Positions 6,116 through 34,710 of a stretch of 40,016 nt of DNA are shown here, piece by piece. The DNA comes from Polyangia bacterium. GTDB lineage: Bacteria > Myxococcota_A > Polyangia > Polyangiales > Sandaracinaceae. The stretch lies in the NCBI GenBank assembly GCA_030426845.1, contig JAUHXR010000047.1, forward strand, positions 1 through 40,016. The letters run 5' to 3'. The notes below the pieces were generated by a model. It was not told the origin of the DNA. It did not search any database and saw nothing but the letters and a program-made list of their open reading frames with translations. The translations under genes were made by a program, and so were the position numbers. Numbering within the stretch: position 1 is the first letter of the stretch; every line of letters begins with the position of its first letter.

Positions 6116-7471
6116 ATGCCTCGCGTGCTCGTCGTCGACGACGAGGAGAACATCCGCCTCGTGCTCCGGACCTTGCTCCGCAAGCACGGCTACGAGGTCA
6201 GCGTCGCGTCGAGCGGTGAGGAGGCGCTGGAGCGGCTCGAGGACGCGGCCCCCGACTTCGTGCTCGCGGACGTCCGGATGAGCGGGATGAGCGGGATCGA
6301 GCTCACGCGCGAGCTCTCCGGCCGCGAGGCGCGGCCGACCGTGATCGTGATGAGCGCCTACGGCTCGGTCGACCTCGCGATCGAGGCGATCAAGGCCGGC
6401 GCCTACGACTACGTCTCGAAGCCGTTCAAGCAGGACGAGGTGCTCCTCGCGCTGCGCAAGGCGGAGGAGCGCGAGTCGTTACGGCGCGAGAACGCGCAGC
6501 TCAAGGCGCGCATCCTCGAGCAGTCGTCCTACGCGGGGATGATCGGCACGAGCGAGGCGATCCAGAAGGTCTTCCGCATGATCGAGAAGGCGGCCGGCTA
6601 CGCGACGACGGTCCTGATCCAGGGCGAGAGCGGGACGGGCAAGGAGCTCGTCGCGCGCGCGCTCCACGAGCGCGGCGAGCGGGCACCGCGGCCCTTCGTG
6701 GCCGTGAACTGCGGCGCCATCCCCGAGTCACTGATCGAGTCGGAGCTCTTCGGGCACAAGCGCGGCGCGTTCACGGACGCGAGCCAGGACAAGCCCGGGC
6801 TGTTCGAGGAGGCCGACCGCGGGACCCTCTTCCTCGACGAGATCGGCGAGCTGCCGCCGGGCACGCAGGTCAAGCTCCTTCGCGTACTCCAGGAGGGGAC
6901 GTTTCGTCGGCTCGGGGAGACGCGCGATCGCGAGGCCGACGTGCGCGTGGTCGCCGCGACGGTCCGCGTGCTCAAGGACGAGGTGGACGAGGGGCGCTTC
7001 CGCGAGGACCTCTACTACCGCCTCAACGTCCTGCCGATCGTGGTCCCGCCGCTACGCTCGCGACGCGAGGACCTGCCGCTCCTCGTCGACCACTTCCTCG
7101 CGCGCAACAACCAGCGCCTGGGCACGCGCATCCGTGGGGTCGACCCGAAGGCCCACAAGCTGCTGCTCGCCTACCACTGGCCGGGCAACGTGCGCGAGCT
7201 CGAGAACGTCCTCGAGCGGGCGATGGTCCTCGCGGACGGCGACGTGCTCGTCGAGGGCGACCTGCCGGAGCGCCTCCGCGAGCCCGACCCGGTCCAGGCG
7301 GTCCTCGCGACGGGCGAGCTGTCGATCAAGAAGACCCACCGCTACATTGAGGAGACCCTCATCCGGAAGGCGCTCGAGAAGACCGGCGGCAACCGCACGC
7401 AGGCGAGCAAGCTGCTCGAGATCAGTCACCGCGCGCTGCTCTACAAGATCAAGGACTACGGGCTGAGCTGA
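6116..7471 (+). CDS. NtrC-family sigma-54-dependent response regulator
   Basis: A 451-residue transcriptional activator with three domains. Receiver: residues 1-115, with acidic DDEEN at the start, phospho-acceptor Asp52 (LADVRMSG) and conserved Lys102 (SKPFK). AAA+ core: ~140-380, with Walker A GESGTGKE (171-178), sigma-54 contact loop GAFTDA (218-223) and Walker B TLFLDEIGE. C-terminal Fis-type helix-turn-helix: ~411-450 (GGNRTQASKLLEISHRALLY). Proteins of this family hydrolyse ATP to open sigma-54 promoters after phosphorylation by a partner histidine kinase; no kinase gene is adjacent. The contact loop has Asp in place of the second Gly of GAFTGA. Its targets are unknown; the upstream SulP gene is a candidate by proximity only. 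Confidence 0.96.
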   Translation: MPRVLVVDDEENIRLVLRTLLRKHGYEVSVASSGEEALERLEDAAPDFVLADVRMSGMSGIELTRELSGREARPTVIVMSAYGSVDLAIEAIKAGAYDYVSKPFKQDEVLLALRKAEERESLRRENAQLKARILEQSSYAGMIGTSEAIQKVFRMIEKAAGYATTVLIQGESGTGKELVARALHERGERAPRPFVAVNCGAIPESLIESELFGHKRGAFTDASQDKPGLFEEADRGTLFLDEIGELPPGTQVKLLRVLQEGTFRRLGETRDREADVRVVAATVRVLKDEVDEGRFREDLYYRLNVLPIVVPPLRSRREDLPLLVDHFLARNNQRLGTRIRGVDPKAHKLLLAYHWPGNVRELENVLERAMVLADGDVLVEGDLPERLREPDPVQAVLATGELSIKKTHRYIEETLIRKALEKTGGNRTQASKLLEISHRALLYKIKDYGLS

Positions 7472-11693: not shown

Positions 11694-12188
11694 ATGCGTC
11701 ACGCCCATTCGCTCGTCCGGCTCGCGCTCGCCCTCTCCGTCGTCGGTGCCCTCGGGGGCGCTCTCGCGGGCTGCGGCGGCGAGAACATCCCGAACACCGA
11801 CGTCCCCGACAACGCCGAGAACCGGGCCGTCCTCACCTTCGTCGAGGACTACCGGCACGCCGTGGAGCGGCGCGACGTGGGGGCGATCCTCTCGCTCGTC
11901 TCGCCTCGCTTCTTCGACGACAACGGGACGATCAGCTCGGACGACGACCGGGACTTCGACGCGCTCAGCGAGCAGCTCGCGCGCTTCGAGCAGATCCTCG
12001 ATGTCCGCTACGAGATGCGCTACCGCAACGTGACGTACCGCGCCGACCGCATCCTCGTGGACTACACGTACACGGCGAGCTTCAAGGTCGCGACGCCCCA
12101 GGGCGATCACTGGGAGACGCGCCTGCGTGACAACCGGCTCGAGCTGGTCCGCGAGGATGGCGAATTCCGCATCATCTCGGGTATCTGA
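11694..12188 (+). CDS. Lipoprotein with NTF2-like fold
   Basis: A 164-residue predicted lipoprotein. The signal sequence runs through residues 1-25 and ends in a lipobox (ALAGC). The mature part begins acidic (ENRAVLTFVEDYRHAVERRD) and continues with alternating strands (VTYRADRILVDYTYTASFKV; NRLELVREDGEFRIISG), the pattern of NTF2/SnoaL-like proteins, in which a cone-shaped fold binds small ligands or acts as a scaffold. No catalytic residues can be assigned. It precedes the MshEN-REC-TPR gene by 67 bp and may share its transcript. The start at 11694 is chosen because it opens the signal peptide. Confidence 0.85.
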   Translation: MRHAHSLVRLALALSVVGALGGALAGCGGENIPNTDVPDNAENRAVLTFVEDYRHAVERRDVGAILSLVSPRFFDDNGTISSDDDRDFDALSEQLARFEQILDVRYEMRYRNVTYRADRILVDYTYTASFKVATPQGDHWETRLRDNRLELVREDGEFRIISGI

Positions 12189-12255: not shown

Positions 12256-13767
12256 GTGGCAGGGTCAGGCGACAAGAAGCAGCTGGGCAAGATCCTGCTC
12301 AGGCAGAAGCTCGTCACGCCTGATGAGCTGGACGAGCTGCTCGACGAGCAGCGCCGCACGCCGGGGGCGCGCCTGGGGTCGACGGCCGTGATGAGCGGCA
12401 AGGTCGACGAGGTCGACATGCTCCGCGCGCTGAGCGAGCAGCACGGCCTGCCGGGGATCGACCTCGCGCAGACCGTCATCCCGCTCGAGAACCTCCAGCT
12501 CATCCCCCACGACATCGCGCGGCAGTACCTGATCCTGCCGTTCAGCGTGAAGGACGAGCACCTCTTCCTCGCGATGGCCGACCCGGCGGACAAGCGGGTG
12601 ATCGACGAGATCGAGTTCGTCACCGGCCGCAAGGTGTTCCCCTACGTCGGGGTGAGCGGACCGCTCGAGCACACGATCGAGGAGGCCTACGCCCAGCTCG
12701 AGCGGGGTGAGCAGTACTACGTCGGCCCGCACGCGCCGGAGGAGTACCTCAAGGACCTCGGCCTCGTGCGCGCGACCCCGCGCCCGCCGCCGCGCGACCC
12801 GAAGCACCGCCCGTCGTCGCCGCGCTTCCGGCCGCCCAGCACGCCCGCGATGGCGGTGGTCACCAAGGAGGACTCGGGAGTCCTCGCGGCCCCGGAGGTG
12901 CCCGTGCAGCGGAGCGCGCCGCGCAAGATGCCGACCCTCGACGACGCCTTCGCCTCCAAGGTGGCGCCGCTGCCGACCCGCGACGACGGCACCGGGGCGA
13001 GCGCGGGCAGCCGCTGCGTCCTGATCGTCGACGACGAGGACGACATCCGCCGCATGCTCCGGCGCGTGCTCAACGAGCGCGACATCGAGGTCGTCGAGGC
13101 GTCGCGGGGGAGCGAGGCGCTCGCCGCGGTGCGCGAGCGCGAGCCCGACGTGATCCTGCTCGACGCGATGCTCCCCGAGATCCACGGCTTCGACATCTGC
13201 CGCCGCATCAAGGGCAGCAAGAAGTATGGTCACATCCCGATCATCATGGTCTCGGCCGTCTACCGTGGCTGGCGGTTCGCCGAGGACCTGAAGCAGTCCT
13301 ACGGGGTGAACGAGTTCCTCGAGAAGCCGTTCAAGATCTCCGACGTCGTGACCGCGGTGGAGCGGGCGCTCGAGGGCAAGGACCCCGACGAGGCAGCCGA
13401 GACGCTGTCGGAGGAGGCCTCGGATTGCCTGGAGCAGGGGATCAACGCGTATCGCGCCGGCGACCTGGACACGGCGATCCAACACCTTCAGCGTGGGATA
13501 GGGCTCGACCCGCTCGCGTTTCGCTTACACTACCACCTCGGCTTGCTCTACGGCCGGCGTGAGCAGCTCTTCGAAGGCATCCAGGCGCTGGAGACGAGCG
13601 TGGACCTCTCGCCGCGCAACTTCTCGGCTCTGAAGAACCTCGCGGTCCTCTACCAGCGCGCGGGGTTCAAGCACAAAGCGCGCGAGATGTGGGAGCGGGC
13701 CCTCGGCGCCGCGCCCGACGACGAAACTCGTCAGGGGATCAAAGACCACCTCGTCAGCTTGCTCTAA
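12256..13767 (+). CDS. MshEN-REC-TPR fusion protein (putative c-di-GMP-responsive regulator)
   Basis: A 503-residue protein with an unusual domain order, starting at a GTG. Residues ~1-155 are an MshEN domain (the N-terminal domain of type II/IV secretion ATPases). It shows two tandem copies of the LG-x5-8-G-x6-L-x3-L-x2-Q nucleotide-binding signature at residues 9-32 and 39-62; in MshE-type proteins such paired motifs bind cyclic di-GMP. A Pro-rich linker (~175-250) follows. Residues ~252-375 are a receiver domain (CVLIVDDEDDIRR, phospho-acceptor Asp303 in ILLDAMLPE, Lys in LEKPFK). Residues ~390-495 are about three TPR repeats. There is no ATPase, DNA-binding or output enzyme domain, so it is probably an adaptor. 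Ligand binding is inferred from motif match only. Confidence 0.9.
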   Translation: MAGSGDKKQLGKILLRQKLVTPDELDELLDEQRRTPGARLGSTAVMSGKVDEVDMLRALSEQHGLPGIDLAQTVIPLENLQLIPHDIARQYLILPFSVKDEHLFLAMADPADKRVIDEIEFVTGRKVFPYVGVSGPLEHTIEEAYAQLERGEQYYVGPHAPEEYLKDLGLVRATPRPPPRDPKHRPSSPRFRPPSTPAMAVVTKEDSGVLAAPEVPVQRSAPRKMPTLDDAFASKVAPLPTRDDGTGASAGSRCVLIVDDEDDIRRMLRRVLNERDIEVVEASRGSEALAAVREREPDVILLDAMLPEIHGFDICRRIKGSKKYGHIPIIMVSAVYRGWRFAEDLKQSYGVNEFLEKPFKISDVVTAVERALEGKDPDEAAETLSEEASDCLEQGINAYRAGDLDTAIQHLQRGIGLDPLAFRLHYHLGLLYGRREQLFEGIQALETSVDLSPRNFSALKNLAVLYQRAGFKHKAREMWERALGAAPDDETRQGIKDHLVSLL

Positions 13768-13847: not shown

Positions 13848-15653
13848 ATGAAGTTCCTCTGCCCCAACTGCAAGGCCAAGTACCAGATCTCCGACGAGAA
13901 GATCGCTGGCCGCACACTCAAGATGGACTGCCGCCGCTGCAGTCATCCGATCGTGATCCGGGGCACCTCGAACAGCGCCAGCCCGCCCGCGTCCGGCGGC
14001 TCCCCGTCCAGCCCCCCGCGCGGGTCGCGCGGGTCGATCGCGAGCCCGAACCGGCGGCCCGGCTCGCACGTGGGCCCGGCGCCGTCCTCGCGCAGCTCGC
14101 GCTCGGCCCTCGGCTCGGACTTCCGGCGGCAGGCCGCCTCGCCGCCCGCGTCGCAGCGCCCGACCGCGCTCGACCAGTGGCACGTCGCGATCAACGACGT
14201 CCCCGTCGGCCCGATGAAGCGCGACGAGGTGGCCAAGAAGATGGCCAGCGGCGCGATCCACGGCGACTCGCTCTGCTGGCGCGAGGGCTTCGACGACTGG
14301 CGCGAGGTCCGCAAGGTCCCCGAGCTGGCCGCGCTCATGCGGCACAACGCGCCGCGCCCGGTGGCGCCGCCGCCGCCGCCGCCCAAGCCCGCGTTCCCGG
14401 CGCCGTCGCGCCCGCTCGGCCGCGGGGGCGCCGCGTCCCGCCCGGGTCGCCCGCCCACCGGTCGTGTCCACGCGGCCGCGCCCGCGCGTCCTCAGCCTGT
14501 GCGCCCGGCCGCGGTCGCGCAGAGCCCCGCTTCCGCTCCGTCGAACGTCGTGCCGATCGGCGGGCGCCTCGGGGCGGCGGCCGCGCCCGCCTTCGACGAG
14601 CCGGTCGGCGACTTCGTGGACGACGAGGAGCCGACGCGCGTCGGTTCGACCTTCGACTTCGACGCGCTCGAGGCGGCCGCGGGCGCTCCGGCGGCCCCGG
14701 CCAAGCCCCCGCCGGAGGACGAGCCCGTCGCGGCCGCGCTCGCGCCGGCCGAGGAGGCCTTCGATCCCTTCGCGTCGAGCGCCGGCGCGGCCCCGGCGCC
14801 CGCGCCGACCCCCGCGCCGACCCCCGCCCCTGTCGAGGCGGTGCCGGCCGAGGCGCCCGAGCGCCGGCGGCGCGCCATCCCGATCGGCGCGTGGATCGCC
14901 ATCGCGGGCGCGATGGCCTTCGGCGTGGCCCTCGCGGTCATGGTCGGGACTCACTTCCTCACTCAGCCGCCTGCGGTCGCGACCGCGCCGGCTCCGACGC
15001 CGCCTCCGGCGGATCCCACGCCCGATCCCACGCCGGCCACGCCCGAGCTCGAGGTCCCGGCCGAGGTCGAGGAGCCCGGGGGCGAGGAGGGCGAGACGCC
15101 GGCCGATCCGGACCCCGAGGCCGAGGGCTCCGCGCAGACCGGCGCGGGCGGGAGCCGTCGCGCTGGCGGCGGAGGCCGCTCGACGACGACCACGGTGGGC
15201 AGCGCTGGCGCCGGTACGGGCACGACCCGTCCGTCGGGGGGCGAGTCCCTCACCGCGGCCCAGCGCGAGGCGCTCGCGCGCGCTGGCGCGGACACCTCGG
15301 CGCCGGCTCAGATCTCGGGCGCCCGCAACCCGCTCCTCGAGGGGGGCGGATCACGCGCCGCCGCCGCAGAGCTCACCGCCGACCAGATCCGTACGGTGGT
15401 CAACCGCAACCGCTCGAGCGTGCAGCAGTGCTACGAGACCGAGGCGCGCCGCGCCGGGACCGCCCCGACGGTCCGCATCAACGCGGCCGTCACGATCGGC
15501 GCCTCCGGCACCGTGACCCGGGTCTCGTCCCAGGGCGGCAGCTTCGGCACCCTCGGGAACTGCATCGAGCGCGCCGTGCGGCGCTGGGTGTTCCCGCGCT
15601 CGAGCGGCCCGACGAGCACGTCCATCCCGTTCGTGTTCAGCGGCCAGGAGTAG
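13848..15653 (+). CDS. AgmX/GltJ-like protein: zinc ribbon, GYF, TM, TonB-like C-terminus
   Basis: A 601-residue envelope-spanning protein. It begins with a zinc ribbon with Cys5, Cys8, Cys28 and Cys31 (FLCPNCKAKYQISDEKIAGR is family-typical). A GYF_2/DUF4339 domain lies at ~105-160 (WHVAINDVPVGPMKRDEV to DWREVRKVPEL). A Pro/Ala-rich cytoplasmic linker precedes one transmembrane helix at ~345-370. The periplasmic part is Pro/Glu/Gly-rich and ends in an AgmX/PglI C-terminal domain (NRNRSSVQQCYETEARR to CIERAVRRWVFP). In Myxococcus xanthus this architecture is that of GltJ/AgmX of the gliding machinery. Other glt genes are absent here, so a paralog with another envelope role is possible. It starts 80 bp after the MshEN-REC-TPR gene. 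Confidence 0.9.
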   Translation: MKFLCPNCKAKYQISDEKIAGRTLKMDCRRCSHPIVIRGTSNSASPPASGGSPSSPPRGSRGSIASPNRRPGSHVGPAPSSRSSRSALGSDFRRQAASPPASQRPTALDQWHVAINDVPVGPMKRDEVAKKMASGAIHGDSLCWREGFDDWREVRKVPELAALMRHNAPRPVAPPPPPPKPAFPAPSRPLGRGGAASRPGRPPTGRVHAAAPARPQPVRPAAVAQSPASAPSNVVPIGGRLGAAAAPAFDEPVGDFVDDEEPTRVGSTFDFDALEAAAGAPAAPAKPPPEDEPVAAALAPAEEAFDPFASSAGAAPAPAPTPAPTPAPVEAVPAEAPERRRRAIPIGAWIAIAGAMAFGVALAVMVGTHFLTQPPAVATAPAPTPPPADPTPDPTPATPELEVPAEVEEPGGEEGETPADPDPEAEGSAQTGAGGSRRAGGGGRSTTTTVGSAGAGTGTTRPSGGESLTAAQREALARAGADTSAPAQISGARNPLLEGGGSRAAAAELTADQIRTVVNRNRSSVQQCYETEARRAGTAPTVRINAAVTIGASGTVTRVSSQGGSFGTLGNCIERAVRRWVFPRSSGPTSTSIPFVFSGQE

Positions 15654-20702: not shown

Positions 20703-21896
20703 ATGGTGAGCCGGGCGAGCGGCCGTCGCGTCCTCCTGTGGGTCAGCCTCCTCGGAGCGGGCTGCGCGCAGGTGCACGTGCCGGCCGGGGACGCGAGCGG
20801 TCGGGACGCGGGCTCGAGCGCCTACGGGACTCGCTACCTCGCGGGCTCGGACCCGTGCAACGACCAAGGGTGGACGAGCTGCGACTGCGCGGTCGGTGTC
20901 GGGATCGCGCGCTGCGCGGGGGGCGCGCAGGGGCCGTGCGAGTGCAAGCCGCCGCTAGCGCCCGACGGGCCCGAGCCGCCCGGCGGCTGCGCGGGAGAAG
21001 CGGAGCAGTGCGACGGCTACGACCGCGACTGCGACGGCGAGGTGGACGAGGCCTGCCTCGACGCGACGGTGCGCGGGACGCTCCCGTTCACGGGGACCGT
21101 GTGGCGCTTTGGCTACGCGCTCGAGTCGGGGAGCTGCAGCGAAGGCTCGTTCCAGTCGTTCTGGCCGACGATGGAGCCCCCGATCCTCGGCGACGTGCCG
21201 TGCATCGAGAGGTACCCGGGCGGGCCGTACCGCGTGGGCCCCGACGGCGCCGTGTACTTCGGCGCGTTCTTCCCGAGAGCTCCGACGGGGATGAGCGGCC
21301 TCCGTCGCGTCGCGCCTGACGGCACGCAGACGGTCGCGGAGACGCCTCCGTGTACGGGCCGCGCCATCCCGCGCTGGGGTGGCTTCGCCTTCGGAGCGGA
21401 CGGGGCCCTCTACTACCGCTGCGGCGACACGGTCTATCGCGACGGCGTAGAGCTCCCCGTCGAGGGGCGGATCGAGGCGGTGCTGGAGTCCGGCGCGCTG
21501 CTGCTGACCGGTGGGGTGGTGGAGGCGATGGCCGACCTCGCCTGGCTCGTCCGCCCCGACGGAGAGGTCCTCTGGGAGCACGCGGTCTCCGGCGTGCGCC
21601 TCGGGATCGACTCGGCCACGGTGGCGGGCGACAGCGTGTTCCTCGCCGCCATCCCGATCGGCGGTCCGGACGAGTGGTGGATGCTCCGGATCGACGCCGA
21701 CGGAACGGAGACGCGGGTTCGCCGCGTCCCCGAGCCCGTCGACTCACGCCTGTGGGCGGACGAGCGGCTGCTCGCGCTGCCCGACGGGCGCTTCTACTAC
21801 GGCAACCTCGAGATCCCGGTCTCCGGCCCGCCGCGCGAGGTCGAGCCGGCGCCCGCGCACCGCTACTGGGCCCACGTCTCGTTCCCTGGACCGTGA
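20703..21896 (+). CDS. Lipoprotein with MopE-like metal-binding motif and propeller-like body
   Basis: A 397-residue predicted lipoprotein (lipobox LLGAGC at ~17-22). After a short linker come Cys-rich segments (CNDQGWTSCDCAVGVGIARC) and a MopE-type motif (EQCDGYDRDCDGEVDEAC), in which an Asp/Cys loop is thought to bind metal. The remaining ~250 residues are strands with repeated G-DGxxYY/xFG units (VGPDGAVYFGAFF; FGADGALYYRCGD; VRPDGEVLWEHAV; IDADGTETRVRRV), a beta-propeller-like pattern. It is probably surface-exposed. I start it at the ATG at 20703 because it opens the signal sequence. It is followed by an RCC1-like gene after 86 bp. Confidence 0.88.
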   Translation: MVSRASGRRVLLWVSLLGAGCAQVHVPAGDASGRDAGSSAYGTRYLAGSDPCNDQGWTSCDCAVGVGIARCAGGAQGPCECKPPLAPDGPEPPGGCAGEAEQCDGYDRDCDGEVDEACLDATVRGTLPFTGTVWRFGYALESGSCSEGSFQSFWPTMEPPILGDVPCIERYPGGPYRVGPDGAVYFGAFFPRAPTGMSGLRRVAPDGTQTVAETPPCTGRAIPRWGGFAFGADGALYYRCGDTVYRDGVELPVEGRIEAVLESGALLLTGGVVEAMADLAWLVRPDGEVLWEHAVSGVRLGIDSATVAGDSVFLAAIPIGGPDEWWMLRIDADGTETRVRRVPEPVDSRLWADERLLALPDGRFYYGNLEIPVSGPPREVEPAPAHRYWAHVSFPGP

Positions 21897-21982
21897 CCTC
21901 CACGGCGGGCCGGGTCACCGAGCCGAGGCCTCGCATCGTTCCGCGCGGACTCGGAGCGTCGTCTCGTGCGACGCTCCTCCGG

Positions 21983-24148
21983 GTGACCTCCTCGACGCGG
22001 TACGCGTGCCTCCTCGCGCTGCTCACGTCCGCCTGCGGCTCGTCGCCGACCGCCGGGGTGGAGGCGCCCGTGCCGGAGCAGGCCCCAGCGGAGGCCGATG
22101 CGCCGGGCGCCTGGACCGCGCAGCGGCTGGCGCGTTCGGGCGAGGGATACGACTCGACCGCCACGGGCTTCTGCTCCATCGACGCCGCGGAGCGCGTGGT
22201 GTGCTGGGGCGCGGCATGGGGCGTGGCCCCTCGGACGGTCGAGGGGCTCGACGACGCGGTCGAGGTGGTGGCCACGCCCACCCACGTCTGCGCGCGGCGG
22301 CGGAGCGGTGAGGTGGCGTGCTCCCGTCGAGGCGGGGGCGACGCCGAGGTGGTGCTCGAGGACACGGTCGACGTCGCGGCGCTCGGCTACGAGCTGTGCG
22401 CGGTGACCCGCGCGGGCGAGGTCACGTGCTGGGGCGGCCCGTGGAGCGAAGACCATCCGTCGTGGCGGCGCTTCCGTGGAGCGGTCGAGCGCTCGCACGC
22501 GATGGCCGGCACGCCCGAGACGTGGCGCCGGCGCGCGCGGCTCGACGGCCTGACCGATGCTGTCGCGCTGCGGGCCAGCGGGCCCGCCGCGGCCCCCCGC
22601 TGGTGTGCGCTGCGGCGCTCGGGCGCGGTCACGTGTTGGGGCGTCGACGAGGAGGCGGGACCGCTGGAGGGGATCGGAGACGCGCTCGATCTGACCCTGG
22701 CGGGGCCGGCGCCGTGTGTGCTCCGCCGCGCGGGTGGCGTCGTGTGCGAGGAGGCCGCCGCCCCCGGCGAGACGTCTATGTGGCGTGCGATCCCACAGAG
22801 CAGCGACGCCCGGGCATTCGTCCGGGGTGCGCCGCTCCGGGACGCCGAGGTCTGCGCGCGCGTCGCCGCGGGCGACCTCGCCTGCTGGCACGCCGACGAT
22901 CGCTTCACGCCTCCGCTCCCCGAAGGGCTGACGGACCTGACGGAGGTGGCGCCGGTGCGCGAACCCGACGCCGTGCGCGGCGCGGCGCGGGCGGACGGGC
23001 TGCCGGAGGCCGGCTGCGCTGCGACGCCCCGCGGGCCGTGGTGCTGGGGGCCGCTCGCGGCGGCGGGTCGCGCGCCGGAGGCCGCGCGCGGACCCGTGGC
23101 GCCCGTCGGGCTGTCTGACGTGGTCGAGCTCACAGCGGGCGACTGGCACACCTGCGCGCGGCGCCGCTCGGGGGAGATCCTGTGCTGGGGCCGCAACGCC
23201 TACCAGGCGCTCGGGGAGCCGACCTACGACCCGCGCGCCGAGGACGCGGTCCCAGCCGTGGCGTCCCCGACCCCGCTCGCGACGCCGGAGGGAGCGCGCG
23301 TCTTCGCCGGCGCAACCGATGTGTGCGCGGTGGACGCGCGCGGCCGGGTCGCGTGCCGGGGGCAGGTCGCCCACGCGATGGAGGCCGGCGGCGCCGCGCC
23401 CGACGACGGCTGGGTCCCCGCGGTCGGGCTCACCGCGCCCGAGCGGCTCGTCACGGGCGTCTACACGTTGTGCGGCCTGCGCCGAAGCCGGGTGTCCTGC
23501 GCGGGCCGCGACGTCCGCCAGCCGGGCCCGCAGCCGCTCGAGGTGCCCAACCGCTTCGCGCCGCTCGCCGCGCTGGGCCCGGCCGTCGATCTGAGCGCCT
23601 ACGCCAACCAGATCTGCGCCGCGGGGCGCGACGGTCGCGTGCGCTGCGTCGGCTCCTACGTCGTCGGGCGACGAGGGGACGCGCGTGCGGCGATGGAGCT
23701 GCCCGCGATCCGCGGCGCCACGCGCGTCCTCCTCGGCGAGCGCAGGGTCTGGGTGCTCGCGGAGGGTCACGTGCGCGCGCTGGCCGAGGAGGCGGAGCCG
23801 CCCTTCGCTTCGCTCGAGGAGGGCGACGGCTGGTGGTACGGCGAGCTCCCCGGGATCGACGACGCCGTCGACCTCACCCCGAGCTGCGCCCTGCGGGACG
23901 GCGGCGCCGTGGTGTGCTGGGGCTGGCTGGCCCGCCTGCTCGGGGCGGAGACCTTCCACCCCGTGACCGTCCCCCTCGAGGGGGCGGCGACTCAGCTCGT
24001 GGGCGCGCCGGGGCACGCGTGCGCGCTGCTGGACAATGGACAGGTTCGTTGCTGGGGCGACGACCGCTTCGAGCAGCTCGGCGACGGCCCGGCCGCGCGG
24101 TGGCTCGACACCCCGGTCGCGGTCGACGGAGAGTGGACCGGCGGCTGA
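21983..24148 (+). CDS. RCC1-like repeat lipoprotein
   Basis: A 721-residue exported protein. The start is placed at the GTG at 21983, which opens a lipoprotein signal (TSSTRYACLLALLTSACGSS). The body shows about 13 copies of a paired-Cys motif Cx(5-9)GxVxCWG, for example CAVTRAGEVTCWG, CARRRSGEILCWG and CALLDNGQVRCWG. Adjacent repeats begin with LxDAVxL-type strands. This is the bacterial regulator-of-chromosome-condensation (RCC1/BLIP-II-like) propeller pattern, seen in many secreted myxobacterial proteins, where cysteines presumably form disulfides. Several copies are degenerate (ACSR, VCEE, ACWH). The role is probably surface binding; the ligand is unknown. Confidence 0.88.
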   Translation: MTSSTRYACLLALLTSACGSSPTAGVEAPVPEQAPAEADAPGAWTAQRLARSGEGYDSTATGFCSIDAAERVVCWGAAWGVAPRTVEGLDDAVEVVATPTHVCARRRSGEVACSRRGGGDAEVVLEDTVDVAALGYELCAVTRAGEVTCWGGPWSEDHPSWRRFRGAVERSHAMAGTPETWRRRARLDGLTDAVALRASGPAAAPRWCALRRSGAVTCWGVDEEAGPLEGIGDALDLTLAGPAPCVLRRAGGVVCEEAAAPGETSMWRAIPQSSDARAFVRGAPLRDAEVCARVAAGDLACWHADDRFTPPLPEGLTDLTEVAPVREPDAVRGAARADGLPEAGCAATPRGPWCWGPLAAAGRAPEAARGPVAPVGLSDVVELTAGDWHTCARRRSGEILCWGRNAYQALGEPTYDPRAEDAVPAVASPTPLATPEGARVFAGATDVCAVDARGRVACRGQVAHAMEAGGAAPDDGWVPAVGLTAPERLVTGVYTLCGLRRSRVSCAGRDVRQPGPQPLEVPNRFAPLAALGPAVDLSAYANQICAAGRDGRVRCVGSYVVGRRGDARAAMELPAIRGATRVLLGERRVWVLAEGHVRALAEEAEPPFASLEEGDGWWYGELPGIDDAVDLTPSCALRDGGAVVCWGWLARLLGAETFHPVTVPLEGAATQLVGAPGHACALLDNGQVRCWGDDRFEQLGDGPAARWLDTPVAVDGEWTGG

Positions 24149-33836: not shown

Positions 33837-34710
33837 GGGGTCGACGACGCGACCGCGCGAAAGCCGATCTTCTTCGCCGCGCTCGCGCTCGTCGCGGGCC
33901 TCGCGCTGCCCCGCGGGAGCCTCGCCCAGGAGAATGAGGCGCCCGCGCCGCGCGTCCGCGAGCCCCTGTTCGTGACGACCGAGCTCGGCGTCTCGGGCCC
34001 CCTCAACAACCCCGTGAACGGCCTCTTCGGCGTCGGCATGTCCGGCGGCGTCGGCGCCTACCACGCGACCCTCCCGGAGCTCGCGGTCGGTGGCCGCGTG
34101 CAGGCGGGCTTCCTGGGCGAGGGTAACGACATCCCCGAGGAGCCGGTCGATCGCGACGTGCTCGACTGCGCAACGATCGGGCCCGCGCTCCGCGTCCGCC
34201 CGCTCGCCTCGCACCACGAGCCCGACGACCGCGCGACGGGCCTCTACGTCGACATCGCGCCAGGCCTCGCGCTCGCGGACGGTCACGTGATCCCACTTCG
34301 ACCACGACAGCGCAGAGCTCCGCCCCGCGGGGTGCGGGCAGCTCGACGCGTTCGTCGAGCACTACGAGCAGCACGGCGACCGCTACGATCTCCTGGTCAT
34401 GACGGGCCACGCCGACGCGCGCGGGCCGAACGACTACAGCGAGGAGCTCAGCCGGGAGCGCGCCCTCGCGGTGCGCGACTACCTCGTGCGCCACGGCGTT
34501 GACGGCGACGTGCTCCGCACCGAGGCGTACGGCGAGGCCCGGCCGACCGTCGGTCCGGCGACCACGCCCGGCCAGCACCAGCTCAACCGACGCGTCGAGC
34601 TCCGCGTGGTGTGGCAGCCGGGCGAGCGTCCCGAGGGGGTCGCGCCCGAGGCCGACCCGACCGATCCGTCCTACGTCGACGCGGCGTCGGTGCCCCAGGC
34701 CTCCCGCTGA
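33837..34710 (+). pseudogene. Broken OmpA-family gene (start lost, internal deletion)
   Basis: Two frames together spell an OmpA-type protein. Immediately after the DUF1328 stop, in the same frame, comes a signal peptide (ARKPIFFAALALVAGLALPR to SLAQ) and the first half of a beta-barrel (LFVTTELGVSG to GLYVDIAPGLALADGHV). No ATG, GTG or TTG exists between the DUF1328 stop and the signal sequence, so the start codon is lost. At ~34290 the reading shifts by one frame directly to the peptidoglycan-binding domain (HFDHDSAELRPAGCGQ, MTGHADARGP, NRRVELRVVW), which ends at 34710. The missing second half of the barrel indicates a deletion, not a simple slip. A GTG at 33972 could still express a short product without signal. 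Confidence 0.8.

Follow-up and report, generated by a model that had tools for sequence, protein, structure and literature searches.

The MRT locus and its two proteins

The window, by which we mean the whole 40,016-nucleotide stretch of Polyangia DNA analysed here, encodes an MshEN-REC-TPR protein, hereafter MRT, in which an MshEN domain is followed by a linker, a receiver domain containing Asp303 and three TPRs (Table 1). Each of these domains was matched by Pfam above its cut-off: MshEN at residues 63-149 with 73.5 bits (cut-off 23.1), Response_reg at residues 255-368 with 86.7 bits (cut-off 30.2), and the TPRs with 37.8 bits for TPR_2 and 37.6 bits for TPR_11 (cut-offs 27 and 26.8). A sequence-only reading of this DNA had described the gene as an MshEN-REC-TPR fusion without a secretion ATPase, and the open reading frame, the domain order and the Pfam domains agree with that description, including the assignment of the N-terminal region to the MshEN family PF05157. 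Pfam matched no secretion-ATPase family in MRT, and its sequence gave no match to a Walker A motif. In the AlphaFold2 model (mean pLDDT 83), the MshEN, receiver and TPR domains are ordered. By sequence, the MshEN domain matches the structures of PilB, PilF and MshE, with PilB-type domains the nearest; among the 50 matches listed from fold searches of the PDB with MRT, only the receiver and the TPRs were represented, and the whole architecture was absent.

In the receiver, Asp303 occupies the phospho-acceptor position, and the acidic pair Asp259/Asp260, Ser333 and Lys357 are all present. Across 83 distinct orthologues, Asp303 is retained in 81, Ser333 in 82 and Lys357 in all 83, so that the earlier placing of a phospho-receiver beside the TPRs is borne out by near-invariant active-site residues. 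The rarity of the fusion had, on the other hand, been overstated: MshEN joined to REC, or to other non-ATPase domains, is already published (PMC5013675), and the organism's own genome holds further MshEN proteins without an obvious ATPase. That genome gave nine MshEN matches (L001-L009), some of them ATPase-like; L007 looks fused to an HD-type domain, and L006 and L008 are without an obvious ATPase.

Table 1. Features of the MRT locus and other frames in the window (positions in the window).
Feature	Positions	Strand	Description and basis
NtrC-type response regulator	6116-7471	+	REC, sigma-54 activation domain, Fis HTH
SnoaL/NTF2-like predicted lipoprotein	11694..12188	+	weak sub-threshold SnoaL matches; lipobox LAGC read from sequence
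MshEN-REC-TPR protein (MRT)	12256..13767	+	503 aa, GTG start; ORF, Pfam, NCBIfam, orthologues
c-di-GMP motif I, residues 9-32	12280..12351	+	Gln9 for Arg, Lys18 for Gly; NF053729 and sequence
c-di-GMP motif II, residues 39-62	12370..12441	+	Arg39, Gly41, Gln62 retained; Met55 for Leu; NF053729 and sequence
MshEN C-subdomain, residues 63-149	12442..12702	+	Pfam PF05157; retained in motif-less orthologues
proline-rich linker, residues 150-252	12703..13011	+	mostly disordered; pLDDT <50 at 186-249 (AlphaFold2)
phospho-receiver domain, residues 255-368	13018..13359	+	Pfam PF00072; Asp303 codon 13162-13164
TPR repeats, residues 392-492	13429..13731	+	Pfam TPR_2 and TPR_11; helices in AlphaFold2 model
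partner protein	13848..15653	+	zinc ribbon-GYF-membrane helix-AgmX/TonB-like C-tail, 601 aa; Pfam, NCBIfam, synteny
partner zinc ribbon, residues 1-35	13848..13952	+	Zn_ribbon_4; 7zok match
partner GYF_2 domain, residues 111-160	14178..14327	+	Pfam GYF_2; 7z3c match
partner predicted membrane helix, residues about 343-369	14874..14954	+	hydrophobic stretch by eye
two adjacent genes, 221 and 246 aa	15849-17254	-	no Pfam match
RCC1-like repeat frame	21350-24148	+	RCC1_2 63.7 bits
OmpA-type C-terminal domain-like frame	34290-34707	+	by eye only

Directly downstream of MRT lies a conserved gene that the earlier reading did not include, and which we refer to as the partner. Its product was matched by Pfam to Zn_ribbon_4 (41.8 bits) and GYF_2 (57 bits), and by NCBIfam to myxo_SS_tail (55.8 bits) and MJ0042_CXXC (29.1 bits), both above cut-off; the C-terminal tail is of the AgmX/PglI type. 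The zinc ribbon resembles the solved zinc ribbon of Myxococcus xanthus AgmX/GltJ (7zok, E 8e-8), and the GYF domain resembles the solved GYF domain of the same protein (7z3c, E 2e-10). Identification of the partner as GltJ itself was rejected, as it scored 90.3 bits with the GltJ family model NF033761 against a cut-off of 450 bits, and no protein of the genome exceeded that cut-off. A scan for promoters and terminators found nothing.

The linker of MRT was also compared among orthologues. A short hydrophobic-acidic motif (e.g., GVVVDD) occurs in 36 of 76 orthologue linkers as compared to 2.6 in shuffled sequences, a difference that overstates the evidence because the pattern was picked after the sequences had been inspected. 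The linker of the window's MRT has the motif in a diverged form only. That the partner's GYF domain might bind this motif is only an idea suggested by the sequences, and the linker is not consistently GYF-ligand-like.

The c-di-GMP motifs and their loss among orthologues

Genomes sampled at three ranks contained MRT orthologues: 74 of 115 for the order, 87 of 192 for the class and 17 of 112 for the phylum. The named orthologues belong to Myxococcota or ‘Deltaproteobacteria’, many of them to Sandaracinaceae, Polyangiaceae, Labilithrix and Polyangium. All three domain types were present in each of the 27 relatives scanned with Pfam, and the domain combination is thus far above chance.

Tandem c-di-GMP-binding motifs had been reported for the N-terminal region; both copies are present at the positions claimed, in an imperfect form. 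Motif I reads QLG...K...Q and motif II reads RLG...G...Q, Ala44, Lys49 and Met55 occupy consensus hydrophobic positions in motif II, and the spacer between the motifs is 6 residues as compared to 5 in MshE. The NCBIfam model for this motif, NF053729, nevertheless scored the window's MRT at 51.3 bits over residues 9-62 (cut-off 38) and, in a comparison of eight MRT members, at 53.7 bits, the highest score of the set; the relatives scored about 37-43 bits and two of the eight gave no match. In MshE, Arg9 stacks on guanine, the motif glycines provide backbone hydrogen bonds, and the motif glutamines contact the ribose and phosphate of c-di-GMP (PMC5013675). The window's MRT retains the glycine at position 3 of each motif (residues 11 and 41) and the two glutamines. 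Gln9 had been considered as proof of non-binding, and this was softened because PilF GSPII-B, which has neither motif arginine and retains both glycines, binds c-di-GMP with a KD of 324 nM. By this yardstick, the window's MRT, which is among the best-preserved copies, may bind c-di-GMP.

Most of the family has departed further from the consensus. At motif I position 9, Arg is found in 1 of 83 distinct orthologues; at position 41 of motif II, Gly is found in 3 and Ala in 59. The motif region is altogether absent from several MRT lineages. On a 71-row tree built without the motif columns, by a quick method and with long branches, the raw minimum was 9 changes between presence and absence; about 8 is the safer figure, since the row L161 was counted as lacking the region only through a partial alignment. 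A count of this sort cannot on its own tell gain from loss, and repeated loss of the motif region is the simpler reading. In the AlphaFold2 model of a motif-less orthologue (L025), residues 1-21 are disordered and the four-helix pocket is gone, while the MshEN C-subdomain, the receiver and the TPRs are modelled with confidence. Motif-less orthologues retain these three elements, and mostly the partner gene too. With the motifs eroded or deleted in most orthologues and the receiver near-invariant, c-di-GMP sensing was rejected as the core function of the family, and since so many relatives have lost the presumed pocket, the second messenger is probably not the core job of MRT. A match to MshEN, even above a curated motif cut-off, is therefore not equivalent to c-di-GMP binding as a conserved function.

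Conservation of the MRT-partner gene pair

The partner lies directly after MRT in 20/20 loci fetched. In a larger set of 80 named loci, all from Myxococcota, it follows MRT immediately on the same strand in 73, with a gap of 12-278 nt; 59 of these carry a complete partner, 13 are cut by the contig end but begin with the zinc ribbon, and 1 is split between frames. The remaining seven comprise four Polyangium loci with the C-terminal part of the partner only and three without a partner. GYF_2 genes are few per genome (3 in the window's own 9.4-Mb genome, 1 to 12 in other genomes of the order), so adjacency to MRT by chance would be expected in about one in thousands, an estimate to be read with the loci being related and hence not independent trials.

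The other neighbours vary between families: a SnoaL lipoprotein and an NtrC-type regulator in the vicinity of Sandaracinaceae, and queA-tgt elsewhere, the identities of QueA and Tgt being read by eye. By synteny, the upstream SnoaL-like gene is linked to the MRT-partner pair mainly in nearer relatives. Several relatives carry a homologue of the window's NtrC-type regulator close to MRT, and in genomes without MRT such a homologue adjoins the partner gene. In three genomes viewed at the locus, the partner without MRT lies beside an NtrC-type gene (L164, L167) or tgt (L166). Among the 20 MRT-less genomes listed, the partner was matched strongly (E 1e-50 or better) in at least 14; the list of 20 includes G004, whose MRT appears to be truncated at a contig end and not missing. 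Because the partner persists in MRT-less genomes, it may be the core membrane protein and MRT its accessory regulator.

MRT without an adjoining partner is found mainly in one deeper branch, whose members include f23 and f48 and which has the same architecture. The loci of this branch that have no zinc ribbon-GYF neighbour are L142-L148, L150, L152, L153, L160 and L161.

A proposed adaptor function and its relation to known systems

We put at about even the chance that MRT is a phosphorylation-controlled cytosolic adaptor for the GltJ-like inner-membrane protein and that c-di-GMP is no more than an extra input in particular lineages. We infer a phosphorylation step, a contact between MRT and the partner, a docking role for MshEN and a link to gliding or the envelope. 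In the proposed mechanism, Asp303 would be phosphorylated by a histidine kinase encoded at another locus, and the phosphorylated receiver would alter the presentation of the TPRs and perhaps of the linker. The presentation of the TPRs would then decide whether MRT docks on the cytosolic zinc ribbon-GYF arm of the partner, such that MRT would regulate or recruit the GltJ-like protein encoded next to it. The MshEN C-subdomain would serve as a docking surface, and in lineages that keep the pocket, such as that of the window, c-di-GMP may tune docking as a second input. This adaptor model is consistent with the near-invariance of the receiver active site, with a partner that adjoins MRT while the other neighbours differ between families, with the persistence of the partner in MRT-less genomes, as would fit a core protein and an accessory regulator, and with the retention of all but the motif region in motif-less orthologues. 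Against it stand the deeper branch, which indicates that the MRT architecture can work without the partner, and the seven exceptional loci among the 80. No histidine kinase linked to MRT was identified, and the adjacency of the two genes may reflect shared expression alone.

Other explanations place the output of MRT elsewhere or give its N-terminal domain more weight. The sequence-only reading had joined second messenger and phosphorelay in one adaptor; the receiver beside the TPRs stood, and the c-di-GMP half did not hold for most orthologues. As a dual-input integrator, in which c-di-GMP at the tandem motifs and phosphorylation of Asp303 would jointly set the TPR output, MRT would draw support from the window's copy, with its retained glycines and glutamines and its NF053729 score, from binding by PilF GSPII-B without both arginines, and from the MshEN domain of M. 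xanthus PilB, which binds c-di-GMP (PMC11656802). However, PilF GSPII-A, a non-binder, has Ala at the second glycine, the residue that most MRT orthologues carry at position 41, and there a change from Ala to Gly was needed for high affinity (PMC12002112). Given the rarity of Gly41 and the loss of the whole pocket in many lineages, joint control cannot serve as the family-wide function, and we consider it unlikely.

A further alternative is that the MshEN C-subdomain docks MRT on the stator of a type IV pilus or type II secretion system (PilM/GspL-like), where MRT would compete with or localise the extension ATPase under phospho-control. Extension ATPases are believed to touch the stator through their MshEN/N1 domains, a contact that is made in the T2SS homologues (PMC11656802), the MshEN domain of MRT is nearest to PilB-type domains, and a PilB-like ATPase (L001) is encoded in the same genome. 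Yet no pilus gene was seen among the conserved neighbours, the constant one being the GltJ-like gene, and we regard stator docking as very improbable. Slightly less improbable is that MRT and the partner are co-transcribed within one regulon without contact, MRT acting on an unrelated target. MRT members of branch B without an adjoining partner and the existence of partner-only genomes would fit such an arrangement, whereas the adjacency of the two genes outlives changes of all other neighbours.

Carried further, the adaptor model would have Polyangia and near relatives use MRT and its partner as a two-gene module for envelope signalling: the adaptor, with its phospho-receiver, TPRs and repurposed MshEN domain, would switch the GltJ-like protein, and its pocket would have been repeatedly discarded as a sensor became a docking domain; we offer this larger reading tentatively, as possible and somewhat less probable than the adaptor role. 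If true, it would show a route by which phosphorylation reaches a GltJ-like envelope protein in bacteria other than the Myxococcus model, and the orthologues, whose pockets range from full through eroded to deleted, would form a natural series in which a non-nucleotide job of MshEN could be tested directly. A search for MglA-like GTPases (Arf family) returned only weak matches that were uninformative. In open-access full text, where most subscription papers are missing, we found no description of the MRT-partner gene pair.

In M. xanthus the GltJ machinery has a cytosolic partner of receiver type, AglZ, which combines a pseudo-receiver with a coiled coil and is a possible functional analogue of MRT. 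Unlike MRT, AglZ to our knowledge carries neither MshEN nor TPRs. Two counts put the number of MshEN proteins in M. xanthus at 17-22 (PMC8844925, PMC5013675). With the MshE/PilB extension ATPases (PF05157; PMC5013675), MRT shares the two-subdomain MshEN fold, by sequence and model, and the window's MRT has tandem 24-residue motifs, in an imperfect form, as they do; it differs in having no ATPase, in the erosion or deletion of the motif half in most orthologues, and in the receiver and TPRs that follow MshEN. The MshEN-REC fusions of Wang et al., 2016 (PMC5013675) likewise join MshEN to a two-component receiver, a likeness drawn from a passage that gives no detail of architecture, TPR or partner gene. 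In M. xanthus, gltJ of the G1 cluster directly follows the giant TPR gene gltI, and not an MshEN-REC-TPR gene (PMC3169522). The partner is most like GltJ/AgmX of M. xanthus (NF033761; 7z3c, 7zok), with the same order of zinc ribbon, GYF domain, membrane helix and AgmX/TonB-like tail, at a score below the GltJ family cut-off.
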